Of a DNA stretch of 64,000 bases, positions 1-62,387 are shown piece by piece (within the stretch, counting starts at the first letter, position 1; every line of letters starts with the position of its first letter). Below the pieces are notes generated by a model. The model made no database searches and was not told the origin of the DNA. It saw only the letters and a list, made by a program, of their open reading frames with translations. The DNA lies in the NCBI GenBank assembly GCA_023627715.1, contig JAMAHW010000060.1, positions 124,001-188,000 on the forward strand, given 5' to 3'. Position numbers and translations under genes: made by a program. The DNA comes from Periconia sp. R9002. Lineage: Eukaryota; Ascomycota; Dothideomycetes; Pleosporales; Periconiaceae.

Positions 1-155
1 GCAGCATCGTCAATGTGCGCGACAAAGCGAGGTTGAGTGTAGAATTCGGTATCGACGCTTTCATCGTAGCGCTGGAAGTCGGATGGCTTATGAGGCCATT
101 TGGTCCTGAGTGGTTGGTATTCTCGCACGGGATAGGGCGGTGGTGATGCGCTCAT
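1..155 (-). CDS. SAM-dependent methyltransferase, N-terminus (partial)
   Basis: An ATG at 155 on the minus strand opens a frame that runs off the left edge. It starts MSASPPPYPV and contains YDESVDTEFY followed by PRFVAHIDDA. These short motifs match the N-terminus of fungal class I (methyltransferase type 11-like) SAM-dependent methyltransferases, where they precede the SAM-binding fold. Only about 51 residues are visible, so neither the catalytic fold nor the substrate can be assessed. A different-frame ORF over the same bases (88-339) lacks this similarity and was not used. The family call is from memory of the motif. Confidence 0.6.
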   Translation of the reverse strand, partial: MSASPPPYPVREYQPLRTKWPHKPSDFQRYDESVDTEFYTQPRFVAHIDDA

Positions 156-1431
156 GGTGAACAGTCGCTGTGGGTGTAATGAGCGGCGTAGAAATGAGAG
201 CGATGCCGGTTTGATTTGACGTAGGATCATAAAGATATCTTCGTTGTACTGTGTTGCATGAGAAACAAGGAATTGATTCAACAATCGTGTAACAATTCTC
301 TTTCTCAGTGATACTGATGTGGGAGAGTGATGATGTCATGTGTCGCAGCGGGTAGACGCGAGTCCCGCTTGTTGTTATCGCGCCATCACGTGCTTCGTTG
401 AAAACTCATTTGACTTGATGAACTTTCAATTGCGAAAAAGATAATGAATTCAATGCCAATTAGCAGAAACCCTACTGACTCATCTCCCGATTCAGTGCTT
501 TGTTGATCGCAACCGTTACTGGTTTCAAAGCTCCCGGCAAGACCCCCTTATGCTCCATCTTTTTGCCGTTATGAAACACTTTGAGGCCACCTCCGGAATC
601 CGAAAGCTTCATTCGCGTAGCATATAAGCGTATTTCGTTATTTTGAGCTTGTTGTGAGCTGTAAGGTTTTAGCGCCGTCTTGTAACATCGAATAGAGGGA
701 AAATGTTTAGTAGATACCAGGTCTTATTCGCTTGGGGGGGAGGTGGAAGGAAAGAATTTTGGACGAGGACTGCAAGGAAATAGAGAAACGCACAATTGGC
801 TTCCCAGAGATTTTTCAATAGCAGCCATCTCATTGCGATCGGCGGCTGGATCGAACAAGCTGAAAACATTGACTCCAGGTTGTTTCTTGAAGCGGGTATC
901 AAAAATGTGTTCTTCTTCGCGATTTATTTCGGTAATCAGTCACCTTGTAGCGGGTATATTCCCCTTCCCTAGCAAGAAGTCAGGCCTGATTCTGGCCGGA
1001 AAGGCTGGGTCCAATGCCAAACTGGCGAAAGATGTACGTACGTTTCTATTAGTTTCCAAGACATCGTGTTTCAATACTAGTTCTGTGGACGTGAGACTGG
1101 AGGTGATGTGAAATAGAAAAGGACAATGAGAGCTACGATTCATCTCACGGACAGCATTTATGAGATCCTATCATTTTCGTTTCTTGGAATAAAAACCGAT
1201 CTGCAATCGACGTCAATCTGCATGTGGTGAGGCCAATAGAAAGCCCGTCGTAAGATCTAGCCAACCACAATACTCCGGAGCGCCACCATCGCTCCACATA
1301 CTTGCACAGATCGCATACTAACCCGTTTCAACCGACAATTTCCCTGTTTTCGAGTATGTTTCAAAAAAGAAAGCTCTCTGGTGGCAATAACGAATAGCTC
1401 TCCATGGTACAGATTAGGGATCCATGCATGG
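156..1431. other. No gene recognised; left flank of the exon array
   Basis: I find no convincing coding region on either strand. A degenerate unit of the neighbouring array may lie at about 1257-1432: on the minus strand a CTGATG branch-like site and an AG near 1432 precede a frame containing AWIPNLYHGE, but the 15-nt spacing and the GW pair are not kept. Confidence 0.4.
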
Positions 1432-1579
1432 CTGCTCGCATCGCGCATCAGCAAGGATAAATGTTATCGATGGAACACGCGATTGTACCGTAAAAAAGTC
1501 GCCATTTCATTCATACCAACCTCCATGTTACGACAAACGTTATGAGTGAGAGTCGAGCCTAAATGTCCCAAGCTCGGTA

Positions 1580-1828
1580 TCAACCACACGCAGCAAATCC
1601 TTCATCCGCTTCGTCCTCAAAGCCCCTCACTTGATACAGCTCAATCCGACGAAAAATATACAGATTGAGAAAAGGTTCTAGTCGGGTTCCGTTAAGCGTC
1701 CGCTGCCTGGTGTGTCGCACGACTGAGATCATATCTGGGTCCTGGACATGAGTTTCGAACAGACTGAGATTGTGCAGAGACATATAGCCCCGACGAAAAT
1801 GAAGCCACCAGCCCATGTGGCACACTTT
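1580..1828 (-). CDS. GW-array candidate exon
   Basis: Acceptor after GCTGATGACTC...TTCAACAG. The exon reads KVCHM-GWW, then SLHNLSLF, and stays open for 82 codons. It is the last unit of the array in transcription order and one of the longest. No function is recognised. Confidence 0.5.
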   Translation of the reverse strand, partial: KVCHMGWWLHFRRGYMSLHNLSLFETHVQDPDMISVVRHTRQRTLNGTRLEPFLNLYIFRRIELYQVRGFEDEADEGFAACG

Positions 1829-2498
1829 CTGTTGAAATAAGAGAGTCATCAGCAGCCATTCTTATTTATACTAATGAGTGCGACATGATCAAAAGAACAA
1901 TGAAAACACAAGCCAAATAAAAAAATAAATATCCCTGGAATCCGGTATTTTATCGTCCTTTAGGAATGTGATGACAACTTTGCGATTGTGTATGACGTTT
2001 TAATCCATCTCGGGGTCAGCGAACCGGCGATTCATAATTCCCCAAAAGCCGCTATCCTGGTTGGACATCAGGACTCGTTTGTACGATCAGGATAAAGTTG
2101 TTCCGAGCTATAGTGCAGGATATACATTTCATTAGTGACCCAGTTGAAGATAATTATGTAAGGACACTTCGTGTCCCTTTTCTGTTAGTGATTAGTATAC
2201 GTTACTTTATCTTTCAGCGTATATGAAACAAAGTATGGAAAGGAACAAAACCACCAATTGAATGTAAATGAAGGATGGGAAGTCCGGTGCAATGCCAATA
2301 TGAGATATTTGACCATGACACTGTCGTTTGTGTACAGACTCTGGCTTCTGGATATAGCGTTACACACGAGAAGCCCCATCGTACTTGAGTAAAATTTCCC
2401 ATTGAGTTCCCTCAACCTTGTGACTCTCCTTTGATTTTTGTCATGCTTTCATAATCCTCGTAAACGGCCCAGGGAGGCGACGGAATCCAGGGGAGCAC

Positions 2499-2648
2499 TT
2501 ATATCGCAAATCCAAGGAACCCGTTTTGGCTGACTCGCAACTCCAATACTCTGTCTTCGCCAGGGCCGAAAAGATCGAGAATTTCCATGCCGTGTATAGA
2601 CGTACACTTCCCGTCAATAGAAATCCACCAGCCCGTCATTGGTTCATC
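2499..2648 (-). CDS. GW-array candidate exon
   Basis: Branch ACTAATTT and acceptor AATAACAG. The exon reads DEPMT-GWW, then SIHGMEILDL. It has 49 codons before the stop at 2499-2501. Confidence 0.5.
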   Translation of the reverse strand, partial: DEPMTGWWISIDGKCTSIHGMEILDLFGPGEDRVLELRVSQNGFLGFAI

Positions 2649-2826
2649 CTGTTATTTGTCTGAAATTAGTGTAATCTCTTTGTAATATGTATTGAGAGTG
2701 GAACAAGAACTGTTAAAAACTAAGTGAAGGAGTAAGGGACGTAGAATTCCAAAATGGTGTTGCGCATCCGCGGAGAACTGGTGATTTTTCCAAAAGCAAA
2801 CTTTGATAGCCACCTGGGTATCGTAA

Positions 2827-2868
2827 TCATCCACAGAAAGTAATCGTGACCACCGAAGTTTTGTACTT
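2827..2868 (-). pseudogene. GW-array unit, GW lost
   Basis: Branch GCTAACTAAGACAG is intact, and 15 nt follow (KYKTS), but the GW position reads Val-Val and a stop comes after 13 codons. It is a decayed unit that kept its acceptor. Confidence 0.4.
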
Positions 2869-2991
2869 CTGTCTTAGTTAGCTCCAACAACCGTAGGGGC
2901 AATTGGGAATATGTAGTTCTTTATAAGTATATAGTGGTATAAAGAGAGCTATAAGAGAGATAATGAGGTTATTGCTTATAGAAAAACGGCT

Positions 2992-3192
2992 TTAAGCCCT
3001 AGCAGTTGTCCGAGAGGCAAAGGGGTCACCGTAGAGGGCATAGCGAAGAGACGCATGATATAAAAGTCTCCAAGGCACCAGGTTGATTCGGATTTGGGGA
3101 GTGAAAAAATCTTCCCACATATCTACGTCGTGGCTGGCCGTAGTTATATTGGTACCGGGAGGGTTATACCACCACCCCGTCAATCCGATAGC
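2992..3192 (-). CDS. GW-array candidate exon
   Basis: Acceptor CTGATCTCTCTAG. The exon reads AIGLT-GWWYNPPGTNITTA. It is closely related to the unit at 3319-3513 over the whole exon (shared PPGTNITTA, WEDF, LVP and LYH), so this pair is the most recent duplication in the array. Confidence 0.55.
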   Translation of the reverse strand, partial: AIGLTGWWYNPPGTNITTASHDVDMWEDFFTPQIRINLVPWRLLYHASLRYALYGDPFASRTTARA

Positions 3193-3318
3193 CTAGAGAG
3201 ATCAGTACTTAATAGATTTGGCGATCTGTAAATATTATAGAAAAAGGAAAGACGAAGGAAGACTTTTGGTAAATGGAATGGAAACTCTGGAGAATGATGA
3301 GGACATGGAGTAGCGGCT

Positions 3319-3513
3319 CTAAGCCCTGGCAATTGCCAGACAGGCAAAGGGAACACGGTAAAGGGGATGGCTAGGAGCCACGTGATATAAATGTCGCCGT
3401 GGCACCAGGTTGAGTTGGACATAGCGAAAGTCTTCCCAAAAATATACGTTGAAGATAGCCGTAGTTATATTTGTACCAGGAGGATCATACCACCAGCCCG
3501 TCAAGCCGGTAGT
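3319..3513 (-). CDS. GW-array candidate exon
   Basis: Acceptor ACTAATCTCTCCAG. The exon reads TTGLT-GWWYDPPGTNITTA and has 64 codons. It is the sister of the 2992-3192 unit and differs by many substitutions, yet both frames are still open. Confidence 0.55.
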   Translation of the reverse strand, partial: TTGLTGWWYDPPGTNITTAIFNVYFWEDFRYVQLNLVPRRHLYHVAPSHPLYRVPFACLAIARA

Positions 3514-3737
3514 CTGGAGAGATTAGTGGTTCATCGATTTCGAGATCTGTACGAATCAAAGCAACAATATTATAGAAGTAGGAAATACGAAGAAATGACT
3601 TCTAGTAAATGGAATGGAAATTTTGAGGAAAATAATGACGTGGTCCAAAAAGTAATGGGTGATTCGGCGGCCTTATGGTATATCTTTTTCCCGGCATCCC
3701 GAACCTCTTTGGCAGCATGGAGAGAAAGAGAGGTCCG

Positions 3738-3806
3738 TCATATAATATGAAGCGAAAGAGCTGCGGACGAGTCCTGAGATAAGGTCCAGATTGCGCCGCC
3801 ATCGCC
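3738..3806 (-). pseudogene. GW-array unit, IW variant
   Basis: Acceptor AATGTCAG, then 15 nt (GDGGA), then Ile-Trp in place of Gly-Trp. It continues to LSLHII and stops after 22 codons. The branch site is weak. Confidence 0.35.
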
Positions 3807-3823
3807 CTGACATTGCGCACGGC

Positions 3824-3994
3824 TCAGAGGCCGAGTTCCATCGGCTTGCTGTCGCCTCGTTTATCCAGAATAATGTATGCATGGGAAGACGTCACGGCCT
3901 TCCCGATATTTCTGAGTGGGAGAAGAAGTAAGGAGCTAAAAGATGTCCTATGTGTTTTGAGATTATCCGCAACTGTTCCTTTTATCTCCAGTAT
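3824..3994 (-). CDS. GW-array unit, GT variant
   Basis: Branch GTTAATT and acceptor CACAG. The exon reads ILEIK then Gly-Thr where the others have Gly-Trp, and stays open for 56 codons. Confidence 0.35.
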   Translation of the reverse strand: MLEIKGTVADNLKTHRTSFSSLLLLPLRNIGKAVTSSHAYIILDKRGDSKPMELGL

Positions 3995-4061
3995 CTGTGA
4001 ATTAACATGGCATGCATCCATGGACGCTTTAAAGGTTGGTAATGCTCATTGGGACGCAGCT

Positions 4062-4268
4062 CTAGTACTCAAACATTGCAATCCTTCCATTGGTAGACGA
4101 CCTCCGGAATCGCAGGGTATAGTTGTCTTGCGGACGAAACATCCAAGAGTTATCACGACGGAGTTGTAACCGTCTGTATAAGTCGTCGTTCCACGGGCGC
4201 AGGGTCAGGTTGTGTACTGTTCTGTATCGGATACCCGTGAAGAGCGCCCATCCGATCAACGTATTAGC
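4062..4268 (-). CDS. GW-array candidate exon
   Basis: Branch GCTAACG and acceptor AAACTAG. The exon reads ANTLI-GWALFTGIRYR, then TVHNLTL. It has 68 codons before the stop. Confidence 0.5.
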   Translation of the reverse strand, partial: ANTLIGWALFTGIRYRTVHNLTLRPWNDDLYRRLQLRRDNSWMFRPQDNYTLRFRRSSTNGRIAMFEY

Positions 4269-4561
4269 CTAGTTTCGCCACGTTAGCTTATTTTGCAGAT
4301 AGGGATGAAAATGGAGGAGCAAACAAATTACAGGTAAAAAGTAATTTGATTAACAGTAGAAGTGAAAAAGGAACCAATTCAACAACGTCAAACCCTAAGA
4401 AAGGAACCCTGGTAAATACAAATTACTCCTTGTATGCGACAGCATGGAGAGGTACTCTTGTTGCGTGTTTCCAGAATGCCACCAGGAGAGACAGTGGTTC
4501 CCCTGTAAGCTCCAGGTCCTGAACAACAAGGTATGTGGGAGATGCTATCGTAGACCTCGAA

Positions 4562-4753
4562 CTACTCTGGTGTCGCATCAGTGTTAGGAACGTAATAAAA
4601 CTGGGAGAACGGTGTATTTTGCGGGTTCCAAAATTTCCGCTTCCAACAAGGTGTGGGATGCATCAAGTCCCTCAATTCTATGCCGTGAATTAAAGTAGGA
4701 TCAACAGAAACTAAGAACTGATGGAAGTATAACCAGCCCATAAATAGCCTTCC
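4562..4753 (-). CDS. GW-array candidate exon
   Basis: Branch ACTAACTT and acceptor ACATCTAG. The exon reads GRLFM-GWLYFHQF, then LIHGIELRDL. It has 63 codons before the stop at 4562-4564. Confidence 0.5.
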   Translation of the reverse strand, partial: GRLFMGWLYFHQFLVSVDPTLIHGIELRDLMHPTPCWKRKFWNPQNTPFSQFYYVPNTDATPE

Positions 4754-4767
4754 CTAGATGTACAAAG

Positions 4768-4968
4768 TTAGTAGTGCAGCTGAATAGGTATATAAAAGTG
4801 TAAAGAAATTGTAGGAATAGTATCGTCCCAGTTAATCTTTGGTATCCGGAATGTCTGCGACCAACCAGGTACACTGTTGCTCATTCCTAGAAATGGTAGA
4901 TTGTGGATTGTAAAATGCATAGGCCAATTGGAGGCAGTAACGCAAACCCAACCTACAAACGGCCTAGC
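4768..4968 (-). CDS. GW-array candidate exon
   Basis: Branch GCTAACC and acceptor CAGGCAG. The exon reads ARPFV-GWVCVTASNW, then TIHNLPFLG. It has 66 codons, and its TAA stop is the TAA inside the ACTACTAAC branch site of the next unit downstream. Confidence 0.5.
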   Translation of the reverse strand, partial: ARPFVGWVCVTASNWPMHFTIHNLPFLGMSNSVPGWSQTFRIPKINWDDTIPTISLHFYIPIQLHY

Positions 4969-5074
4969 CTGCCTGTGCGGTTAGCTATAGAGCTAGAAAT
5001 GATTTATAAATAGAAAGATGAAGAAAAACAGATACAAAAAGCTAGAAATATAGATATTGAATTAAAGTCCCAAT

Positions 5075-5149
5075 CTAGTCTTGGCGTTGGGCACTTCTGA
5101 GAGCAACCAGGGAGGTCGAAATCCAAACCCATCCTGGAAACGGCCTGGC
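5075..5149 (-). CDS. GW-array candidate exon (short)
   Basis: Branch ACTAATT and acceptor ACATGCAG. The exon reads ARPFP-GWVWISTS and stops after 24 codons. Its first 15 nt closely match the unit at 4768-4968. Confidence 0.4.
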   Translation of the reverse strand, partial: ARPFPGWVWISTSLVALRSAQRQD

Positions 5150-5230
5150 CTGCATGTGCAATTAGTCGTGCAGCAAGAAGCGGTGGAGAAACAAAATAAA
5201 TAATGAACAAAACTGTATAAGAGAAATCGC

Positions 5231-5425
5231 TTAGGGACAGCGGAGACCGTGAAAAAATAAAGAACCAATAGCAGTGTTATCTTCATGTCTCCGGCAGGTT
5301 CTGGACCCTAGTATATCGTATTTCTTCCGCAAGACGTCCATTTCACGCGCGTTCACACCATGTATGGTGGTCAACCGGTTCCAGACGGGTGTCGGACGCA
5401 AAAACCATCCCGTGATAATCCTAGG
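5231..5425 (-). CDS. GW-array candidate exon
   Basis: Branch GCTAACTCTC and acceptor GCTTATAG. The exon reads PRIIT-GWFLRPTP, then TIHGVNARE. It has 64 codons before the stop. Confidence 0.5.
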   Translation of the reverse strand, partial: PRIITGWFLRPTPVWNRLTTIHGVNAREMDVLRKKYDILGSRTCRRHEDNTAIGSLFFHGLRCP

Positions 5426-5549
5426 CTATAAGCGGAGAGTTAGCAGTGGTGTAGAAAGGAAGTGCAACAAGGGAAAAAACGAAGAACATAAAAAGAGCAG
5501 ATAATGAAAGTGGAGATCGACCAGTAAATTGAGGAATTCTCTCGAGTTG

Positions 5550-5729
5550 TTAAGGTTTCCAATAGAGAATAAAAGTTGCACTGTCGGATCTGTGCCGCTC
5601 CCGCACCAATTGCCATCGAGGTGGGAGTAAACGGAAATCCTCAAAGTCTCTTGTGTCGTTGTCATGGAGCCAGATAATATGATCCGAATTGTTATAAGAA
5701 AAGTAGCACCAGCCCTGGAAGAGTCTCAT
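5550..5729 (-). CDS. GW-array candidate exon
   Basis: Branch GCTAATTTC and acceptor CATGCAG. The exon reads MRLFQ-GWCYFSYNNSD and stays open for 59 codons. It is related to the neighbouring unit at 5877-5963. Confidence 0.5.
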   Translation of the reverse strand: MRLFQGWCYFSYNNSDHIIWLHDNDTRDFEDFRLLPPRWQLVRERHRSDSATFILYWKP

Positions 5730-5876
5730 CTGCATGGATGAAATTAGCAGCGGATCTGACATAGGTGAGCAAAAAAAAGAAAAATAACGTCATAGAATGC
5801 ATCAGCATAGTGCAAGTATTGGATACGGGCCGCGATCGCACGATTTGCCATTCAGAGGGGCGTTGACGTCCAAGAT

Positions 5877-5963
5877 TCAATGTTCCCACTTGTTATTCTG
5901 GAGCCAAGTGGTATCTGTCTGATCGCTATAATCAAAGAAGCCCCAGCTCTGGAAGACTTTCTT
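5877..5963 (-). CDS. GW-array unit, SW variant
   Basis: Branch GCTGATG and acceptor TTGAAG. The exon reads KKVFQ then Ser-Trp-GFFDYSDQTD. It has 28 codons and is a recent relative of the 5550-5729 unit (shared VFQ/LFQ, SDQ/NSD, WL). Confidence 0.4.
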   Translation of the reverse strand, partial: KKVFQSWGFFDYSDQTDTTWLQNNKWEH

Positions 5964-6120
5964 CTTCAATTATATCATCAGCAGCGTATCTAGGCATAAA
6001 TCGAAGAAACAAAAGAGCAAATGAGGAAGTGGAAATGCAGAAGAAGGTTGTAATATTTCCTCTAATGGGCGAGCCTCGTATAAAAAAGAAGTTAACGCGG
6101 TAGTCCGCCGGGAGTGTGCC

Positions 6121-6258
6121 CTAATCCGGGAGCCGTCGCAACGCAAAGCTTGGTCCAGATCTGGGGAGGTATTCATCAAAAGTGAGGTTGTGTATTGTTT
6201 TGATTGGAACCGGTGGTTCGCCTGCCAAAATCAAGCACCAGCCTTTGAACATTCTCAT
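6121..6258 (-). CDS. GW-array unit with mutated acceptor
   Basis: Branch GCTAAC is present, but the expected acceptor reads AA instead of AG. The 15-nt spacing is kept and the frame reads MRMFK-GWCLILAG, then TIHNLTF, with 45 codons. It cannot be spliced at the canonical position as it stands. Confidence 0.4.
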   Translation of the reverse strand: MRMFKGWCLILAGEPPVPIKTIHNLTFDEYLPRSGPSFALRRLPD

Positions 6259-6646
6259 TTGTATGTATTTTGTTAGCAATGCATGAAGACGTGACGCAAA
6301 TAAAGGTAGAAAAACCTTGGCTAAGATGTAAGAGTAAGATGGAAGAGACTTTGGGCTAAGAAACCCACCAGCACAGTGTGTATAACGTTAAATTTAGTCA
6401 TCCTTTCCACGAGCAACTATGTGCCCCAACCCATCAATAATGTCTTCTGTATGCGTGCGATAAGCATCGAAATCCGGGGATGAAAGATACATCCCAACAA
6501 ACGGAGATGATAGAAGAGGAGGGAAATCCCCCAAGTGATGTGGTGGGTGGACAGGGTAATTAGAGGGCGCCCTCGAAACGATGGATCCGGTAAATCGGGC
6601 GGGCAAAAAGGTATCTCGTGGAGGAAAATTGTCGCTACAACATCTT

Positions 6647-6880
6647 TTATACGCGCACGAATATGTCCACCGGCTCATCCTCTCTTGTTGATTCATCCAG
6701 GTATAGACAGATAGGAAAATAACCGTACCGGGACCCCTGTATTTGTCTCCAAGTTTCCCGGATTACAATACTGATTTTGGGGTGGTGGTGCGCTAGTACG
6801 TGGGATACCGGTAAATGATGGATTGTCACCGAGTATGAAACGGTTTCTAGCCTCCGTGTCCAACCGATCATGGCTTTCTT
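6647..6880 (-). CDS. GW-array candidate exon
   Basis: Branch GCTAACCACTC and acceptor TTCCATAG. The exon reads KKAMI-GWTRRLETV, then TIHHLPV. It has 77 codons. Confidence 0.5.
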   Translation of the reverse strand, partial: KKAMIGWTRRLETVSYSVTIHHLPVSHVLAHHHPKISIVIRETWRQIQGSRYGYFPICLYLDESTREDEPVDIFVRV

Positions 6881-7170
6881 CTATGGAAAAGAGTGGTTAG
6901 CTTCGGATGATGAAGTAGCGCAATTAGAGGAAAGATGAAAAACAATTTTGAAATGAGATTCTCGTCGGAATACCGTAGAATCGAGACACGTGGGAAATTA
7001 TTGGTGGAAAAGAGGGAAGACGTTTTTGTCGGTTCAACAAAGATGCTCATCGGTTCGTCCTCGTTTAAAGAGGTGAAACGGTCTCGGAAGGATATCATAT
7101 CGCGAACTTAAGCTCCAGCCGAACAAAGCCCTGTTCTCTTCAAAAAGTTTAATCAGCCTATACTTCCAAG

Positions 7171-7437
7171 TCAGTACAATGATAAAATCTCTCGTAATGG
7201 TAACGAAATACACTCACCGCAAAGGACCACTGGTTCGTCCTCTGTACACACTGAATGTTGGAACAGGAAAGCCCAGAGGGCGACCCCGTTAAGATAACTC
7301 CTGACGATCATCCTTCTGATCGGCTGAAACAGTAGCAGGCTGCTAGCCGCTTGTCCGGCATGGAGACGAAGGTTGTGTATCGTGCTCATACGCGAAACGA
7401 ATCCTAGCCCATTCACCCAGCCGATTATCGATATACT
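7171..7437 (-). CDS. GW-array candidate exon
   Basis: Acceptor TTCGACAG after an AATTAATT sequence. The exon reads SISII-GWVNGLGFV, then TIHNLRL. It has 88 codons, among the longest, with a hydrophobic second half. Confidence 0.5.
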   Translation of the reverse strand, partial: SISIIGWVNGLGFVSRMSTIHNLRLHAGQAASSLLLFQPIRRMIVRSYLNGVALWAFLFQHSVCTEDEPVVLCGECISLPLREILSLY

Positions 7438-7951
7438 CTGTCGAAAAAATTAATTGAGCTCGGACTGATACACGGGCAAGATTGATAAGAAAATACAGGA
7501 TTGAGTCTGTGGAATGAATTCCGTGATTTGGGGAGGGAGAGGGGGAGTATCATCTTGGTTTATAGATGACGAGGTTTCCAGTATCCGTTAAGCCAGCGCG
7601 GGGGGGGGGGGGGGAGGGCAACCAGGTGGTGAGCCTGGAAAGAGCGTTGCGCGAACTGTGAGGAACCCGGAACAAGCAAAGTAATGCACAGCCACAATTC
7701 CTGAAAAGCAGCCGGCGTTCAGATCAGTGCGCTGGATAGCTGTAAAGAAAGAGTAGGTAAACAGGAATAGAGAGAAAATGGTAGTATGAACAGTCGGACC
7801 TTACGTTTTCATTAAGAAAAACGACGAAGAGATTGAAACAAGTAAAGTACCGTCTCATCCCATATCATCCCAATCAACCCCCCCTCAGAAATTTGCATTT
7901 CCATTCGTAAAAGCACGCGAACGCCTTCGTGTTCCGTAACCCAAAGTTGGG

Positions 7952-8053
7952 TCAGTAGGAGCCACTCGATATCTTCCATACCGAGATCATGGTGTTCCAG
8001 ATCTTGGTGTAAACATATAGTGTCATCGTTGAGTGGGCCATAAGTGTGGTTGC
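7952..8053 (-). pseudogene. GW-array unit, GW lost
   Basis: Branch GCTGATGG and acceptor ACACACAG are intact. The exon reads ATTLM then Ala-His in place of Gly-Trp and stops after 33 codons. Confidence 0.35.
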
Positions 8054-8557
8054 CTGTGTGTTTTCCATCAGCTTCCGAAGTGCGAATAATTGACAATGGA
8101 TTGCGACAAGAGAAATGGAACGAGAAAAGGGTTGCTGTAATTCACACAGAGGGGCTGGGTAGCTCACACCTAGTGATTGCACTTATACATTCTCAAGTAA
8201 ATGTGTCTCGAGGGGTCCATAGATAACTGCTTCCAATACCAAAAGTGGCGTTGTAGAGTATGAGAATGGCAAAGTATGGTATCACGCACCATCAACAACC
8301 TTGTCTTGTGACTTCGGAAATCCACGGGATGGCCCTCTGACGGAAGCTGGAACGCATACTAGGCCTGGGATACTGCTCCCGCGGGATCTCGAGGAAAACA
8401 ACCTCAACATGGCGTCCTCGGTTCTCCACGCAAGCACCCTCATGAGAAGTACCTCTCTAGGACGATGTTTGTTACCCAATCCGCCCAGCTTGATATCGTT
8501 ACGCTCTGTATTCGCTAGTTAGCCTTCAGGAGTGGACCGATTGTGAGTTTTGGAAGT

Positions 8558-8731
8558 TTAGTTGCTGTACGCGTTCCGGATGAGAAGATAGAATATAAGA
8601 TGACAGAATCGCATAGCTCTGGACTTCGAGAAAGTACACGGGGATCTCGGATGGCAGATGGGTGGTTTCTTCGTCAGTGGAGCTGTGTGTGGTCGTGATA
8701 ATGTAACGAGAGAAACTGTAATGCATCCGGC
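8558..8731 (-). pseudogene. GW-array unit, GW lost (weak)
   Basis: Acceptor AATGTTAG, then 15 nt (AGCIT), then Val-Ser instead of Gly-Trp. It is open for 57 codons. It is assigned by spacing only. Confidence 0.25.
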
Positions 8732-8999
8732 CTAACATTATAATAGCCCGTACAAAAGTACATGCTCAGATTCGAGACACGCAGACCTCCAGCCTAGGAG
8801 CACAAACACCGGTATACATATTTCCAACCTGCATTTGTGGAAAGAGCGGTACATGGTAAGAGACAAAATTATTCCCGAGTGCGCGGCCGTGGGACTAGAC
8901 ACAGTCCGCAAAGCTGCCTTCTCCGAGAAACCGAACGCACCAGCCTTTTGCGCCGGATGTGTCCAGTGTCGAAGCGGAGACAAGGGAATTCGATTTCGC

Positions 9000-9056
9000 T
9001 TATGGTATAAATAAGACCATAGGTTCCGGTATTCGGTAGTCCAGTATCCAAGACAC
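9000..9056 (-). pseudogene. GW-array unit, GW lost
   Basis: Branch GCTAAGA and acceptor CATGTAG. The exon reads VSWIL then Asp-Tyr and stops after 18 codons. Confidence 0.35.
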
Positions 9057-9124
9057 CTACATGAATTATCTTAGCCGGAATCCTTGAAAACTTTACAGAA
9101 CAAAACATAACGCCTGAGCTACTC

Positions 9125-9289
9125 CTACCTGGTAGGAGAACAGGAAAATTGCAATACTCTGAAAACGCCTTGTGTGTTCCTTCGCACCAATTTGGATTTC
9201 ATTTGAAATGTGATGTAATCAGAGACGAATAGAGACACAATGTGTTCCAATGATCGGCTGTGGATAAACCAGCCTACGAGCGTAACGCT
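9125..9289 (-). CDS. GW-array candidate exon
   Basis: Branch GCTAAGA and acceptor CATATAG. The exon reads SVTLV-GWFIHSRSL and has 54 codons before the stop. Confidence 0.5.
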   Translation of the reverse strand, partial: SVTLVGWFIHSRSLEHIVSLFVSDYITFQMKSKLVRRNTQGVFRVLQFSCSPTR

Positions 9290-9362
9290 CTATATGCATC
9301 CTCTTAGCCTGACTCCGTAGAATACAAAAGGGACCGTAAAAGGTCCTGCCGGTTTCCAAATG

Positions 9363-9545
9363 CTAGGGACGGGGAAAAACGAGTTGTAATAACTGTGTTA
9401 CGCCGCGTGAAGACCTGAATCTCCTTTTCCCTTTTACAACGGAAATTTTGGAGGGAGTCAAAAGGTCCAGCATTGTTACATCGTGGATAAACAGGCCTCT
9501 GTCATTGCAAGTGAGGCCAGTGGTCCAGCCCACGATTGCAACCCT
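9363..9545 (-). CDS. GW-array candidate exon
   Basis: Branch GCTAAAA and acceptor TTGAACAG. The exon reads RVAIV-GWTTGLTC, then FIHDVTM. It has 60 codons. Confidence 0.5.
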   Translation of the reverse strand, partial: RVAIVGWTTGLTCNDRGLFIHDVTMLDLLTPSKISVVKGKRRFRSSRGVTQLLQLVFPRP

Positions 9546-9650
9546 CTGTTCAAATGTTTTAGCTTCCAATTGTGATGAAGTTAAACGTATAAACATGTAT
9601 CCTTTGTCTTTGATGTAGAAGATGGGGAAATCCGGAATAAATGAATCGAC

Positions 9651-9857
9651 CTATGGGCCAGTGAGCACCACATCTTGCGTCTGAAAATCATCCACTCGGG
9701 AGCTCTGTCGTAATAACAGATAATTCCAAGGCACTTCCCGCTTTCTAAACCAGTGCGTGTGGTATCGTCGAGGCTGCCAAATTGCTGACACTGCTATGCC
9801 GTGTATCAGACAAATGTGACCCCAAATTTGTTGTATCCAGCCCTTGATCGTAACGAC
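9651..9857 (-). CDS. GW-array candidate exon
   Basis: Branch ACTAAAT and acceptor GGAAATAG. The exon reads VVTIK-GWIQQIWGH, then LIHGIAV. It has 68 codons. Confidence 0.5.
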   Translation of the reverse strand, partial: VVTIKGWIQQIWGHICLIHGIAVSAIWQPRRYHTHWFRKREVPWNYLLLRQSSRVDDFQTQDVVLTGP

Positions 9858-10374
9858 CTATTTCCTTTTATATTTAGTGTGAACTCGTTGAGATTCAAAT
9901 GACCCTAGCGTCGGTATGGAAATAATGATCGCTGCCCAATATGGGGGGTTGTAGTATAAGACTACTATATCCGCGTAGTCATCTCATGAAGGTTAGTTGC
10001 GAACATAGATTTGTGCTGGTGGTCGGCAGGCCTTCACTCCCAGGCTGTGTCTCCATCGGACCAATATTGAATAATAAATATGCTGATATGGAAAGTATAT
10101 TCCCGGGTACTTGTTCCGTGAGAAGGGGTTGCAGGCATTGAAATGGCATAGTCATCAAGGTGTTACCTGATATAACTGACAAACCCATTGACCGAGCCGT
10201 TCAACAACGTCATACGTTAGGAACCGCAAACACCGACATCTTTGAAATGGGTGGCGCTGTCGAAAAAGGTCCTCGTGTAGAAGTAGGACGTGGTTAAAGT
10301 ATCGATAATTTTGCTTAGCGAGCGTTCGGCGTTCAAAGCTCAGTCTTTAAAACAACACTGTGGAGGAGTAGAAA

Positions 10375-10605
10375 TCAGGATATGAAATTCCCGCCTTCAA
10401 ATTCTGCAAAAAGTTCCCATATGGCAGTAAAAACCGGTCCGATCCCAGGATCCGCAATTCTCCTGTGTCGATAATGGCGTCTTCGGCGGAGGCGAAAATA
10501 GTATCTATCGTACGCGATGTTGATTTTTAAACCATGTATCATTTCACCGATGCGCTCTAGGAAGTTAAGGTGGTCAAAAGTGATCCAGCCCGCAAGTGAA
10601 AGGAT
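10375..10605 (-). CDS. GW-array candidate exon
   Basis: Branch GCTAAGC and acceptor CGGTACAG. The exon reads ILSLA-GWITFDHL, then MIHGLKI, then an Arg-rich stretch. It has 76 codons. Confidence 0.5.
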   Translation of the reverse strand: MLSLAGWITFDHLNFLERIGEMIHGLKINIAYDRYYFRLRRRRHYRHRRIADPGIGPVFTAIWELFAEFEGGNFIS

Positions 10606-10912
10606 CTGTACCGAGTTTTGCTTAGCATGCGTGCCAAATTACAAGGACACAGACAGTAGAGGAGGAATAGTGACGCGGGGATGATGCGAATCTCGAAGCG
10701 CTGCGGAACACCTCGCCCCATATCATTTGCAGTATCGGCCAAATTTGTTTTGCGAGGTTTGTAGCTCCCAGGAAGCTCGGGCTTTGAACAAACAACGGGT
10801 CGAATACTATCCAGGCAACGAGGAAAGCCACTTGGACACCAATATGATATCGATCCATAAAAAGTCGAACGAGCGAATCGATGGGAAGATCGGCGGAAGG
10901 GGACTGCATTCA

Positions 10913-11128
10913 TCATGCCGACGACAAGGAAGTATACATCCGCCACAGTTGATAAACCCTGCCAGGAGAATCTTGGTCGTCATGGCTGCCATGATCGTAC
11001 TCTTCCTTCACTCGCATAATCTTGCCTCGCGACAAGAATCCCCGAAGTTCGTACGAGCTCATTTCATGTATCATGTAGCGGCTCCAAACGTGAAAGTCGC
11101 AAACGACCCAGCCAAGAATCATGGCCGC
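10913..11128 (-). CDS. GW-array candidate exon
   Basis: Branch GGCTAAGATC and acceptor GATAATAG. The exon reads AAMIL-GWVVCDFH, then MIHEMSS. It has 71 codons. It is the well-formed unit nearest the F-box-like gene. Confidence 0.5.
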   Translation of the reverse strand, partial: AAMILGWVVCDFHVWSRYMIHEMSSYELRGFLSRGKIMRVKEEYDHGSHDDQDSPGRVYQLWRMYTSLSSA

Positions 11129-11159
11129 CTATTATCGCGATTGATCTTAGCCCGTACTC

Positions 11160-11345
11160 TTAGATAGATGCTTGCAAAAGAGAGAAGCTGTCCGTAATGG
11201 CGAGTGCTAAAAATTTCACGTCTTCCAATACCACGGGCCCGCAGGCGGCTGGTGTGAGGTGCATTCGGAAGTGTAGCATATATTCAGGCTCAGTGGCGTT
11301 AACAGTGAAATTGTACCATGGCTTAAGTCCAAAACAAGCTTTCAT
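11160..11345 (-). pseudogene. Degenerate GW-array unit
   Basis: The frame reads LKPWYNFTVN followed by YMLHFRMHL, which matches the GW...IH layout with Pro-Trp. The candidate acceptor (GAAAG) is 17 rather than 15 nt upstream, so it is out of phase. Confidence 0.3.
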
Positions 11346-12002
11346 ATCAAGAGGGACGCGACAGGTGCGCCAGAAAAACGGTCCAACCGATATGTGTGAG
11401 GTCCTATCACCAATTTCATCTCTTAGTCTGCATTAATTTGAAGATTACTGTAGCGGATGATACGGGAAAGTGGCTCTGGTATGTCGAGTTTTACGTGGTG
11501 GGTCCGCAACGGTGGTCCCGGATGGTTGCGTATGAACGCGGTCGCACAACAAGCTGGTGGATTGCTGAAGCAAGCAGTTTGTGATACGAAAATTTCGCAG
11601 TTGGGAGCGAGGCGGATCACGTCCCGGTACCATCCCCTACGTGAACCGCCTGGACAGCTTGAATCACCGTGTGATTGTGCGAACGGATTTTCGCCATGTC
11701 AAGCCAACGAGAAAAGTAGAGTCGATAAAGAGCATATCGTCATTTTTTTGAACGTAACACTCTTCTTGCGAACTGTTAGTTTTGTAGAACATTCCGAATG
11801 ACATGGAAGCCACGCAGAAAGAAAGTAAGCAGACCTTGCGGTCTAGTTACGTCACCGTCTAACCTGAGGACAAAGCGAATATAACAACACCATGAGCCAT
11901 TACTCCGAGCGCCTACGCAGAGGCTACGAGAGATAGGCAAATTCCCACTGTTGGTCTCAATCAGCGCTAGGCTCTCGAAAGCGGGGAAGGGGCTGATTCA
12001 AG
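11346..12002. other. Spacer; no feature recognised
   Basis: I see no coding signal, tRNA or obvious repeat on either strand. It separates the exon array from the last assigned exon of the F-box-like gene. Confidence 0.4.
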
Positions 12003-13285
12003 TCATCTACCCTTACTAGTAACCGCGTGGGAAGCATTGCTCCCTCTCAAGCTTATCATTATTTGCAGAGATCCGTCGTGGCTTCCGTTTAAAATAACCC
12101 ATGGGGAGTAGAGCTCCGCGATGAAGATGGAAACACTCAACCAATTCCAGGTCCTCGGCGAGGGAGTCGTCCAGGGTGCAATGTCCAGCGGAGTAATCGT
12201 CTTATACACTTCTCCGGTGCAGGGCGGTACGAAATGCTCAAACGGAAAAAAACAGAATAGAAAGTAGTGTACAGATGTGCAAGATAAAAGAAAAGAATCC
12301 ACATTAACTTAGGAGAATATCGATCTATACGTACCTCATTCCACTTGAGCTGATTCACCACCAGCTTATCGCCCTCCGAATCGTAGTCTCCCTCTGCATG
12401 ATCGATGTATCCGCCCCATTTCTTGTTGGTAATCGTTCCTTCTTCAGGTGGAAGTTGGTCCTCGTTAGGCCTCTCGCGAAGTCTCTGGAGTTTTTGTTGC
12501 AGCCATGCGCCTTTAGGATCGCCCGCTTGGATGCGAGCCGCGCACCAATCGTCAAGCTCATCTTTGGCCCATCCCTCGCATTTTCCAAATCTGTGCGCTG
12601 TCGCCAACATGTCGAAGACGATAGAGCGGTTGCAGCCTGCTTCCATGACGGCGAAATGGATGGAGGCAATGTCGGGTGCTTTACCCAAACGTCGATTGTG
12701 GTTGAAGAGTTCGACAGCTTCGAGATTTCCTTGCAAAATGGCGTCTTTCCGGCTCTGTAACACAATCTGACGCATCTCCTCATTTGCCCAATCGACCGTC
12801 ATGCTCGTGATCCACAATAAGAATCGTAAGAATTCAATTTTTTCTTGAGTCCACTCGCCCTTAAACAGCTTTTTAGGCAGTCTGGCGTTTACCCACGCAA
12901 GCGCGGGCAAATGAGCTCGACTGAAAGGCATTTGTGAAGCATCCTCGAAGTTGATGGGCCACTGCCTGTCCCAGCAACCCGCTTGTTCCGTCTTGCCGCA
13001 CAGACAACCATTGGGCTCGTACTGGTGGAGAACCCACGATTTGAAAAAGTCCCAGGTCATCCATTTGGACGCAAAGATCAAAGTCTGTGACGCTTTCTGG
13101 TGGGCACGAACATCGACATGCTGAGCTGTCAAGTGATGATCGCAAACGTCGGTGTAGATGTTCTTGTCAGACAGCTTGGCGGCAATGTGGGGCGAAGCGA
13201 GGGGCAACGAGGGGTTGTACCCCGAGTCCCTGAAGATAGGTTGGATGAGTTCTGCCGGAAGGCGTTCAATGATTGATGGAGGCAT
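12003..13285 (-). CDS. F-box-like protein; constant exon upstream of the GW-exon array
   Basis: Proposed model: exon 1 13285-12335 (317 codons, starting MPPSIIERLP) and exon 2 12236-12003, joined across a GTACGT donor at 12334 and an acceptor at 12238, giving 394 aa. Residues about 5-35 (ERLPAELIQPIF...LPLASPHIAAKL) fit an F-box-like motif, the Skp1-binding adaptor of SCF ubiquitin ligases. The middle is helical and Trp-rich, with no domain I recognise. Exon 1 ends ...NQLKWNE at phase 0. Exon 2 contains LYSPWVILNGSHDG followed by QIMISLRG, which resembles the PW/GW...IH pattern of the downstream array. An alternative AG (CATCGCGGAG, near 12139) would join KWNE directly to LYSPW in phase. An in-frame upstream start at 13411 (MVSGSAHR) is possible. 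Splicing is inferred. The F-box call is moderate. Confidence 0.65.
12329..12334 (-). promoter_or_regulatory. Phase-0 5' splice donor (GTACGT) of the F-box-like exon
   Basis: The donor follows codon GAG of KWNE. It is the only recognised phase-0 donor upstream of the array, whose acceptors are also phase 0. It is therefore the candidate common donor for alternative terminal exons. Confidence 0.5.
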
Positions 13286-13567
13286 CTTGGTGTGAACGTA
13301 AGATTTAGAGAGAGAAACCTCGGGGAAGGTAGGTATCCCGTGGTTGGTTACGAAGGTGGAGTACAGGCGGGGGCCAGAGCTATTATATCTGTGAGCGCTG
13401 CCTGATACCATACCGCTTACGCATCAGATGACTCTCCAATCGCTGCTCGTTGCTTTCTCGTAAAAAATGAAGGGATACCTAGATTAGGCGACCAACATGT
13501 CCGAGCTTCTCGTGACCCCGCAGTTGTGGTACCTAACGAATTTATAGATGCAGATATCGTATCATTT

Positions 13568-14398
13568 CTATCGGACATTGATGTCAAAGAAAACTGTATC
13601 GTAGCTACTACTCCCCCAATTCCTCACGGAATCAGAAACATTATCGCTGTGCCACCACCTCGACTCGCTCAAGAAAAACCGCGTGTTGGCCCGTTCGACG
13701 AAGAGACGAAAGGTGCTGCTCGAGTATTCGGGTATCGCCCATTGGTAACGCAGACGGCGAACGCGCAGCGGCCCCTGGAGTCTGAATCGTCGAAATGTGT
13801 GGGGAGGAGCGACTTGATCTTTTTCTTGCTGGGAGATCAAGACGCTCGAAAGATCCGTTAACAGGCCGTGCGGGATGAGACGTGACGTGAGTATAGTGTG
13901 CGGAGATTGATACCCTTCGTTATAGTAGTATCCGATGGTAAGTTGGGATACGTAGAGTGAGAATAAAAAACTGAGACATGGTTCAAGTTGCGAGGGAGGT
14001 ACATAGTCGTCGTCATGGGGTTTCTCGTCGTCGTGGAGGAAAGGGTCGTATAGGGAAACTGGGAGTCGGACCTCGATGTCACTCATTTCGGAAATCTTGG
14101 TCGGGTTTCGAATGCGCAGTTCCAAATCATGCGGCCATTCGGAGCGGATACGGTTGAAGAGAAGTTTCATTGTGTTTATTGCTTCGTGCTCATACTCGGT
14201 GCGAACTTGTTTGGAAGCCAGAAGGAGCCCTTGGAAGTCTTCCATGTATCCGGTCAATGGGGTACAGAAGCCATAAACGGCATTTCGAACTTCCGGGGGA
14301 AGATCTGTGAATCGCATTCCCGGCATTTTGGTGTCGCTCTTCTTTGTTTTCCGGTCAATCACAATTCGAGTATTTGAAGATAGGTATGGTCCATACAC
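13568..14398 (-). CDS. F-box/2EXR-like hypothetical protein
   Basis: A single open frame of 276 aa. Near the N-terminus it has MRFTDLPPEVRNAVYGFC followed by LLLASKQVRTEYEHEA. This is the pattern of fungal F-box-like/2EXR proteins (a LPxEVRxxIY helix followed by LLxxxKQVRxE). The rest is rich in aromatic and charged residues, with no further domain recognised. The start could be 14398 (MYGPYL) or the internal ATG at residue 25 (MPGMRF), which sits closer to the motif. It faces the same way as the neighbouring F-box-like gene but is not an obvious duplicate of it. Function is unknown; a substrate-adaptor role is only implied by family. Confidence 0.65.
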   Translation of the reverse strand: MYGPYLSSNTRIVIDRKTKKSDTKMPGMRFTDLPPEVRNAVYGFCTPLTGYMEDFQGLLLASKQVRTEYEHEAINTMKLLFNRIRSEWPHDLELRIRNPTKISEMSDIEVRLPVSLYDPFLHDDEKPHDDDYVPPSQLEPCLSFLFSLYVSQLTIGYYYNEGYQSPHTILTSRLIPHGLLTDLSSVLISQQEKDQVAPPHTFRRFRLQGPLRVRRLRYQWAIPEYSSSTFRLFVERANTRFFLSESRWWHSDNVSDSVRNWGSSSYDTVFFDINVR

Positions 14399-16538: not shown

Positions 16539-17581
16539 ATGGCGACCGTTAACGAGAAGACCACGGATACTACGAATGGCGAGCCCGTTGCGATGGGTCG
16601 CAAGGCACGTTTGGTGACAGGTGAGTAGATGCAGCGTCCAAGTCTACCAAAAGTTCGCCTGCTCATGGATTAGACAATGAGTACTACGAGATTCGACGCA
16701 CTCCCCAAAAAGGGTACGGCTGTGTTGCCAAGCAGGACATCAAGTGCGGAACGCGCATCCTCGCCGACGAAGCGCTAATGGTTGTGCCCATTGGCAACTA
16801 TGGGGGGAAAGACATCGAGGAAGCCTTCGACAAGCTCACGCAGGAGCAAAAGGACCGTTACCTCAGCCTCTCCTGCGGCCAGGAAGAAGACGAAAACGAA
16901 CCGGCAAAGTTCTTTGACGCCGTCGGAGAGATTCCGCGGGTGGTCCGCATCTTCCAGATCAACTGCATGGAATGGAACGATGGCGCGGCCATTTTTCCTA
17001 ACGCGGCCCGCTTCAACCACTCGTGTGTTCCCAACGCCACCTTCAGCTGGCACCCATCGCTCGGTAGGGAAGTTATCCACGCCACCCAAGATATCCCCAA
17101 GGGCGAGGAGATCACGCTGACATACTGCGGTATGACGGGTGATCTCACTCTCCGCACGTGGTTGCTGGAGCACTACGGCTTCAAGTGCCAATGTTCAGCC
17201 TGCGGCAGCGACGCAAGCCGGGACCGGCGATTCCGCATCGACGAACTGCTCCAAACGTTGCGGCCTTTCCGGGGTTTTAATCTCGAGGCGGGCAACCAGC
17301 GGGTCACCAAGCAGATGTTGGAGCTCGCGGTGCTGTGCAAGGCGGAGGGCGAGTACTCGATCCGCGTTGCGCAGCTGTTGCTCGAGCTGGCGATCTTGTG
17401 CGAACGGACGGGCGACTGGAAGCACGGGCTGGAATTTGCGGCGGGGGCGGTCAAGATGAAGCGCGACTGCCAGGGGGCGGATTTCCCTGGTTACGACAAG
17501 TACACGGAGGTTTTCAAGAGGATCTATGGAAAATCGAAGGAGGCGGCGGCGGCGGCAACAGTTCGTGAGGGATCATCATGA
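16539..17581 (+). CDS. SET-domain protein methyltransferase-like
   Basis: Two exons: 16539-16620 and 16674-17581, with a 53-nt intron (GTGAGT...TTAG), giving 329 aa. The SET domain spans roughly residues 28-150. YYEIRRTPQKGYGCVAKQDI is the SET N-part. RFNHSCVPNATF is the NHSCxPN motif that binds SAM and forms the pseudoknot. EEITLTYCG is the C-terminal active-site strand with its Tyr. FKCQCSACG is a post-SET-like Cys cluster. This is the layout of SMYD/SET5-like lysine methyltransferases lacking a MYND finger. The C-terminal third is helical and may be TPR-like. The substrate is unknown; it could be histone or non-histone. The ATG was chosen because it gives a plausible 27-residue lead-in and a clean splice. 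Confidence 0.85.
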
Positions 17582-61260: not shown

Positions 61261-62387
61261 ATGAAGACCTCTCTCATCCTCCCCACCCTCTTCACCGTTG
61301 CCTTCACAGCTCCCGCAACCTTCATCCCCCTCCGTCGTCAGAACAATGCACAAACCTTCACTGGCAACCTAGGCGGCGCCGCAACCCCCATCGTGGACTC
61401 CGGCAACGCTGACCGACCCTTCCAAGTGGGTCAAGATACCTTTGTCAACATTGGAGCGGCTGTCCAGCGAAGCTGCGATCAACAGTTTAACAAATGTGCG
61501 AATTTGGCCAACGGAGGAGACCAAACTGTAGATGTCGCTGCTTGTACTGCGCAGAAGAGTGAGTGAAGGTCTTGCGACGATTTTGGGGGCTCAAAACTGA
61601 CATCGTAATAGCTCAGTGTGATGCTGCGGGCGCAAATGCGGGAGCAGGAGCGGGAGCAAATGCCAACGCCGCAAATGCCAATGCCAATGCTGGGAATGCT
61701 GGAAACGCAAATGCTGGCAATGTCAACGCCGCAAATGCTGGAAACGCCAACGCCGCAAATGCCAACGCTGGAAACGCAAATGCTGGCAATGCTAACGCAG
61801 GCAATGCTAACGCCAACGCTGGCAATGCCAATGCCAATGCCGGAGCTGCTCAAAATGCCACCGCGGATGCTGGAACCGCTGCGAACGCTGGAAATGCTAA
61901 TGCTGGTGCCAATGGAAAAGCCAATGGCAAGGCAAAGGCAAAGGGAAAAGCCAACCAGGCCAACGCAAATGCTGCAAACGCGAACGCTGGCAATGCCAAT
62001 GCCGCCGCTGCAAATGCTGCAAATGCTGCCGCTGGAAACGCCAACGCCGGAAATGCTGCAAATGCCAATGCCAACGCCGGAGCTGCTCAGAACGCCACTG
62101 CGGATGCCGGAGCCGCTGCGAATGCTGGCAATGCTAATGCTGGTGCCAATGGCAAGGCCAACGGCAAAGGAAAGGCGAAGGGGAAAGCCAACCAAGGCAA
62201 CGCAAATGCGAACGCTGCAGCTGGAAATGCAAATGCGAATGCCGGAAATGCAAATGCTACTGGCAAGGGCAAAGGCAAGGGCAAGGCAAATGCCAATGCT
62301 AATGCGAATGGAAACGCAAATGCAAACGCAAATGCAAACAATGCGGCTGCCGCTAACGCTGGTAACGCTGGTAATGCCAACAACTGA
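61261..62387 (+). CDS. Secreted Ala/Asn/Gly-repeat protein
   Basis: Two exons: 61261-61558 and 61612-62387, with a 53-nt intron (GTGAGT...CGTAATAG), giving 357 aa. There is a signal peptide at residues 1-17 (MKTSLILPTLFTVAFTA). A conserved Cys-containing domain at about 25-105 (QTFTGNLGGAATPIVDSG, RPFQVGQDTFVN, VQRSCDQQFNKCANLAN, CTAQKTQCDAA) is common among secreted fungal proteins. Residues 105-357 are almost only Ala, Asn and Gly in ANAGN-type repeats, interrupted by two copies of an about 75-residue block containing AAQNATADAG, NGKANGK and KAKGKANQ. Likely a cell-wall or secreted structural protein. The minus-strand open frame across the repeat is a codon-composition shadow. Confidence 0.85.
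61630..62384 (+). repeat. GCAAATGCC-type coding repeats in the secreted protein
   Basis: Imperfect 6- to 18-bp units of Ala-Asn-Ala-Gly-Asn codons. A larger internal duplication spans about 61846-62010 and 62086-62230. Confidence 0.8.

Follow-up and report, generated by a model that had tools for sequence, protein, structure and literature searches.

How does a single fungal gene come to be followed by a long row of what appear to be its own last exons, and could it use them all? We examined this question in a 64,000-nt window of the genome of the ascomycete Periconia sp. R9002 (contig JAMAHW010000060.1, positions 124,001 to 188,000; coordinates below are those of the window). On the minus strand of this window, a 317-codon exon (hereafter exon 1) ends in a phase-0 splice donor and is followed by repeated units, each of which begins with an acceptor and carries a Gly-Trp pair (GW) at a fixed distance behind it. 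We favour, with a probability of roughly 0.6, a bank of alternative terminal exons that would serve this one donor in the manner of Drosophila mod(mdg4).

An array of candidate terminal exons

The array fills an interval of about 12 kb between the donor of exon 1 and a downstream gene, whose ATG we placed at 230. Within it the layout AG, 15 nt, GGNTGG occurs 20 times on the minus strand, against a mean of 0.42 and a maximum of 3 in 500 first-order Markov shuffles of the region 1000-12334. An AG stands exactly 15 nt before 20 of the 29 GGNTGG motifs on this strand of 1-13300, and among spacings of 0 to 39 nt none except 15 exceeds 7 occurrences. When a YAG acceptor and a CTRA branch motif 5-21 nt before it are added, 17 sites remain against 0.034 expected, with 1 match in the remaining 114.7 kb of window strand sequence. 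At 16 of the 20 sites no stop interrupts the first 40 codons behind GW, compared with 24% of background positions (P = 2e-7); these 16 intact units share one acceptor phase, and each has a stop of its own. The other four are truncated (11403, 7135, 6446 and 5149; units are named by their upper coordinate), and three damaged units lie beyond the 20, two with Ser-Trp (8505 and 5963) and one whose acceptor AG reads AA (6258). The resulting 23 clear units (16 intact, seven damaged) and two doubtful ones agree well with an earlier, sequence-only reading of the window, which had claimed 24-25 minus-strand sites of shared layout, one of them with AA for AG. Neighbouring acceptors are 181-1068 nt apart, and the intact ones lie between 1.2 kb and 10.5 kb from the donor. 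Genome-wide, the pattern CTAAC...AG-n15-GGNTGG gave 39 matches versus 46 in a reversed control, and the only cluster of separate sites consists of five in this array. The two doubtful units are possible remnants seen by eye near 2880 and 2150, and a long C run lies inside the array at about 7600-7613 (-), between units 8505 and 7437.

As the layout was also our search criterion, its constancy proves nothing by itself. Independent signs that units are kept come from the open frames, the acceptor, the branch motif, the T-tract and a motif in the encoded tails. All 16 intact units have a YAG acceptor (8 CAG, 8 TAG; background 43%), 15 of them carry CTRA at -28 to -8 (background 10.8%, P = 5e-14), and the stretch from -70 to -25 is T-rich (42% versus 29%, P = 1e-7). 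The tails of 15 of the 16 contain H-x-[ILVMF] 6-18 residues after GW, which occurs in fewer than 3 on average in anchored shuffles and in at most 11 in any shuffle of the units; the IHN/IHG noted earlier at this place is real but is better written in this broader form. A stricter version, H-x-[ILVM]-x-x-x-[DE]-hydrophobic, is found in 5 of the 16 units and in 6 of the 17 GW tails of relatives described below, against a shuffle maximum of 2. Leave-one-out profiles, in which 7 of the 16 units are matched or beaten by at most one of 3000 GW-anchored shuffles, indicate that the units are related to each other beyond the anchor. The remaining nine score lower, and 3513 and 3192 do not rise above the shuffles once the twin is left out.

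The constant exon and its donor

Exon 1 starts with an ATG at 13285 and ends in KWN-GAG; the donor GTACGT follows directly, precisely as the sequence-only reading had located it behind KWNE (last exon base 12335). One constant upstream part thus stands before a single donor at 12334: in its own genome exon 1 has one full match and one 31% paralogue, and no GW exon was found within 8 kb behind this paralogue, which lies on C48. A protein search gave 160 homologues; among the 120 listed, all named ones belong to what we take to be the Pleosporales, and the nearest is from Periconia macrospinosa (84%). A scan of bacterial and archaeal genomes and viral contigs for stray fungal DNA gave no relative.

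The protein had been called F-box-like. Its LP-x-EL-like start resembles an F-box, but sequence profiles do not support such a domain. Exon 1 matched nothing in Pfam at E up to 1, F-box included; an F-box model was matched by none of 75 relatives at E up to 0.1, and exon 1 is absent from the 54 F-box matches in the genome. An F-box role thus is unproven from sequence, and Pfam and NCBIfam gave nothing useful for exon 1 or its relatives. Three PDB sequence matches to human LRP4 (E 0.001-0.02) were judged spurious, and the best Foldseek match of the predicted relative P0106 in the PDB had E 0.16. Close to the donor, a 77-codon open frame without GW (12236-12003) follows a GAG acceptor. As a proximal exon it does not exceed chance: 3.1% of the AGs in the region open an equally long frame, and 15 AGs lie within 300 nt.

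Last exons in relatives

We examined 125 relatives, namely the best 120 of the 160 from the exon 1 search and five from a search with the last-exon region, a query that favours GW tails. Ninety read through the intron, eight could not be placed, ten have unlike tails and 17 have GW tails, with Gly-Trp at tail residues 6-7 after the identical splice point (12 of the 120 and all five added). These 17 leave exon 1 at the matching residue (W-N-E/Q/K) in models or contigs, and 15 of them, all except P0003 and P0028, have H-x-[ILVMF] after GW (shuffle maximum 9). The proposal that the units are terminal exons of this gene is thereby strengthened: 17 relatives splice exon 1, at the same residue, into an exon of the same layout. 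Most are Didymellaceae or similar; others include Periconia digitata (P0003), Parastagonospora nodorum (P0075), Alternaria, Bipolaris, Decorospora, Pyrenochaeta, Cucurbitaria and Clohesyomyces, together presumably about six families. Since gene, splice point, phase, spacing and motif are common to units and relatives' tails, the array is, as judged from these sequences, a tandem expansion of the gene's own last exon; it is by layout and motif that the units match a known last exon.

Didymellaceae and similar proteins have two unlike last exons, RGWL (P0106, P0124, P0125, P0126) and GWFY (P0085, P0108, P0122, P0123), which are 27% identical in the pair measured and which a Stagonosporopsis model (P0119) strings together. 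P0123 and P0124 are both labelled Boeremia exigua, but share only 71% identity in exon 1, so they do not come from the same locus in a single strain. A single pair, P0124 and P0106, was compared for both parts: identity is 96% in the RGWL exon and 70% in exon 1. The far greater conservation of RGWL than of exon 1 in this pair is opposite to the diversity of the units in this array. Among the 25 proteins that carry the source tag lgn alone, 20 read through the intron, three could not be placed and two are spliced (counted by hand); these two, P0106 and P0125, lie on contigs of 1.4 and 1.7 kb and probably derive from cDNA. The Boeremia model P0123 holds exon 1, a GW exon and a homologue of the gene behind our array (44% identity over 280 alignment columns). 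As it runs into the same downstream gene, the interval from exon 1 to this gene is probably syntenic with Boeremia.

An AlphaFold2 model of P0106 (75 sequences) has a confident, helical body and a low-confidence tail, predicted as strands 321-327 and 335-339, helix 341-346 and strands 360-365 and 372-380. The model of unit 5425, built from 16 window units (mean pLDDT 60, pTM 0.35), has strand 2-10, a short strand 19-20, helix 26-36 and strands 42-44 and 54-63. In the two models GW falls within the first strand and the H motif within or directly behind the second, which lends weak support to a single predicted tail fold.

Divergence and retention of the units

In a DNA self-comparison at E up to 1e-3, three unit pairs match, with 74%, 78% and 72% identity over 331, 55 and 90 columns. 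In five divergent pairs, 54-61% of aligned sites differ; changes are most frequent at codon position 3, on protein alignments that favour such a result. The unit bodies look unconstrained, as would be expected if the scaffold is fixed and the surface free to vary, or if constraint was relaxed recently. In a neutral simulation with an assumed indel rate of 0.08 per substitution, anchor and frame were kept by 5% of copies at 0.15 changes per site, by 0.2% at 0.3 and by 0 of 4000 at 0.5. Frames, YAG acceptors, branch sites and the H-x-hydrophobic motif persist in the array though the bodies are saturated, so they are not lost at the rate of the bodies and free decay fits poorly. Judged by the spacing of neighbours the array could hold perhaps 35-45 units, and 16 intact ones do not sit well with free decay in that room.

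A model for the array and its alternatives

We propose that the last exon of a single-copy, Pleosporales-wide gene was duplicated in tandem between exon 1 and the next gene, which would have left 16 intact and at least seven damaged copies. Every intact copy has a YAG acceptor, a phase-0 frame and a stop, and a CTRA branch site is present in 15 of the 16. The donor at 12334, common to all, would be spliced to one copy per mRNA, with the transcript ending after it, so that the constant 317-residue body would carry one of many tails. These tails may keep a small scaffold (a GW strand, H-x-hydrophobic, then probably a helix and two strands) while the remainder diverges fast, as a variable binding surface would. 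Alternative splicing in cis from 12334, with alternative 3′ ends, is the simplest working model. It seems to us slightly better than an even bet that a filamentous ascomycete produces an adaptor-like protein with over a dozen alternative C-terminal tails from one locus, by splicing a shared donor across up to 10 kb to rapidly diversifying terminal exons, and that this locus arose from the two-exon state which related families have kept.

Several observations weigh against such a bank. We infer the splicing of the units in this fungus, their alternative 3′ ends and the function of the tails from genomic sequence. Intron lengths of 1.2 to 10.5 kb are unusual for fungi, whose mean intron lengths do not exceed 1 kb (PMC8476143). 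The gap to the previous AG is not larger at the units than at other AGs (24 versus 21, P = 0.13), and codon use gives no coding mark, with frame 0 the best of three sense frames in 9 of the 16 units and the best of all six in 4. The closest pair is near neutral (dN 0.24, dS 0.36, dN/dS 0.67), with 17, 12 and 14 differences at codon positions 1, 2 and 3. Two short pairs gave dN/dS of 0.24/0.38 and 0.42/0.40; pairs 5149/4968 and 5963/5729 (13 and 24 codons) are too short and were excluded from claims of selection. In the relatives, 10 of the 27 whose models leave exon 1 have unlike tails, and the Didymellaceae show only two alternative last exons. In P0121, which is similar to Didymellaceae, the frame continues through an intron of about 147 nt to RGWL, so that RGWL is the proximal exon there. 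Units and tails resemble each other weakly when whole-exon profiles are compared (of 3000 anchored shuffles, 5 equal or beat the best unit and 27 the best tail), and one protein search with six of the 16 units gave no relative outside the array (96 candidates, none at E up to 10).

The near-neutral closest pair, the silent codon use and the very long introns that distal units would need, together with the seven clearly damaged units, are also what would be seen if one proximal copy served the gene and the other duplicates were functionless and decaying. We consider this unlikely. Birth and death of useful units would likewise leave damaged ones. An open frame and YAG are kept by 16 units in spite of saturated bodies, and the branch motif and H-x-[ILVMF] by 15 each, whereas in the simulation hardly any neutral copy still had both anchor and frame at 0.3 changes per site. 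With the first 1.2 kb behind the donor free of intact GW units, the gene would still need a distal one unless the candidate frame at 12236 serves. The difficulty of long introns would vanish if transcription of the units began at promoters within the array and their transcripts were joined in trans to those of exon 1, as at mod(mdg4); the anatomy matches that of this gene, whose alternative 3′ exons have independent promoters (PMC12692577). However, all units lie behind exon 1 on the same strand, which makes trans joining unneeded, and no nuclear ascomycete case appeared among the open-access literature matches listed; the one fungal case examined is mitochondrial (PMC9410150). We regard trans-splicing as distinctly improbable.

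Variable cassettes lined up next to a single constant part are also what one would expect of a store from which gene conversion copies units into a proximal expression site, as the sequence-only reading had suggested. This idea fared badly: near-identical copies are not seen, as no unit pair is more than 80% identical and the longest similar pair reaches 74% over 331 columns, and the place near the donor holds no intact GW unit. Such a store is very improbable. That the units are independent small genes whose first exons lie undetected in the gaps is scarcely credible; the acceptor spacings leave some room for such exons, but in the models of relatives an exon of this kind is spliced to this gene's exon 1, and the self-comparison of the array showed no repeated upstream exon.

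Comparison with known systems

Large exon banks are textbook cases in animals. A bank of terminal exons behind one donor would most resemble mod(mdg4) and lola of Drosophila, in which a constant 5′ part is followed by many alternative 3′ terminal exons and one body receives many C-terminal tails. In both, the constant part encodes a BTB domain and the tails carry zinc fingers; neither was found in Pfam searches with exon 1 (E up to 1) and 75 relatives (E up to 0.1). The present array also differs in being fungal, in having all its units on one strand and in being known from genomic sequence alone. Over 30 isoforms are described for mod(mdg4) (PMC12692577). Dscam1 and chelicerate Dscam have tandem arrays of homologous, diverged exons (PMC4835542). 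Members of those arrays are either mutually exclusive internal exons or cassettes at the 5′ end, whereas the units here are terminal and have stops. The RGWL and GWFY exons of Didymellaceae share gene, splice point and layout with our units and, in Boeremia P0123, the downstream neighbour; unlike the 16 intact and extremely diverse units, they are of two types, each conserved between species.

No fungal counterpart of large banks of terminal, duplicated or mutually exclusive exons appeared among the best-ranked open-access literature matches. If the bank is used, the locus would be a fungal counterpart of mod(mdg4) and Dscam diversity, and would demonstrate that an exon bank can operate in a compact, short-intron fungal genome, with splicing over distances for which fungi are not known. 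Set on a constant body, the tails resemble a recognition surface that is diversifying, which makes candidate targets testable (self/nonself, selfish elements, degradation substrates). There is also a practical side, as gene models of this family pick one last exon arbitrarily and those of close species carry different tails.

Features of the locus

Table 1. Exon 1, its donor, the units in order of distance from it, and the downstream gene.
Feature	Coordinates	Strand	Basis
Constant exon 1 (P0001), 317 codons, MPPSIIERLPAELIQPIF...LKWNE	12335..13285	-	open frame, homologues
Phase-0 donor GTACGT after KWN-GAG	12329..12334	-	sequence; splice point identical in relatives
77-codon open frame after GAG acceptor, no GW; candidate proximal exon or chance	12003..12236	-	acceptor 98 nt from donor
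Truncated unit, DLTHIGW, 18 codons	11350..11403	-	layout
Intact terminal exon unit, AAMILGW, 71 codons	10916..11128	-	
Intact unit, ILSLAGW, 76 codons	10378..10605	-	
Intact unit, VVTIKGW, 68 codons	9654..9857	-	
Intact unit, RVAIVGW, 60 codons	9366..9545	-	
Intact unit, SVTLVGW, 54 codons	9128..9289	-	
Damaged unit, SVTISSW, 21 codons	8443..8505	-	
Intact unit, SISIIGW, 88 codons, without CTRA branch motif	7174..7437	-	
Truncated unit, NRALFGW, 33 codons	7037..7135	-	
Intact unit, KKAMIGW, 77 codons	6650..6880	-	
Truncated unit, KTLLMGW, 9 codons	6420..6446	-	
Unit with AA replacing acceptor AG, MRMFKGW	6124..6258	-	
Damaged unit, KKVFQSW, 28 codons; 5′ part duplicates 5729	5880..5963	-	
Intact unit, MRLFQGW, 59 codons	5553..5729	-	
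Intact unit, PRIITGW, 64 codons; structure predicted	5234..5425	-	
Truncated unit, ARPFPGW, 24 codons; 5′ part duplicates 4968	5078..5149	-	
Intact unit, ARPFVGW, 66 codons	4771..4968	-	
Intact unit, GRLFMGW, 63 codons	4565..4753	-	
Intact unit, ANTLIGW, 68 codons; own-genome protein search found itself only	4065..4268	-	
Intact unit, TTGLTGW, 64 codons; tandem duplicate of 3192 (74% nt)	3322..3513	-	
Intact unit, AIGLTGW, 66 codons	2995..3192	-	
Intact unit, DEPMTGW, 49 codons	2502..2648	-	
Intact unit, KVCHMGW, 82 codons; most distal	1583..1828	-	
Downstream gene, 5′ part, methyltransferase-like (own reading), continues left of window	1..230	-	

Just upstream of exon 1 and on the same strand lies a second gene (13571-14326, -) whose start, MPGMRFTDLPPEVRNAVYGF, looks F-box-like. 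Elsewhere in the window, a low-complexity frame of Ala-Asn/Gly repeats with open frames on both strands occupies 61563-62387, and a frame at 16625-17581 (+) contains NHSCVPNATF, presumably the hallmark of a SET domain.

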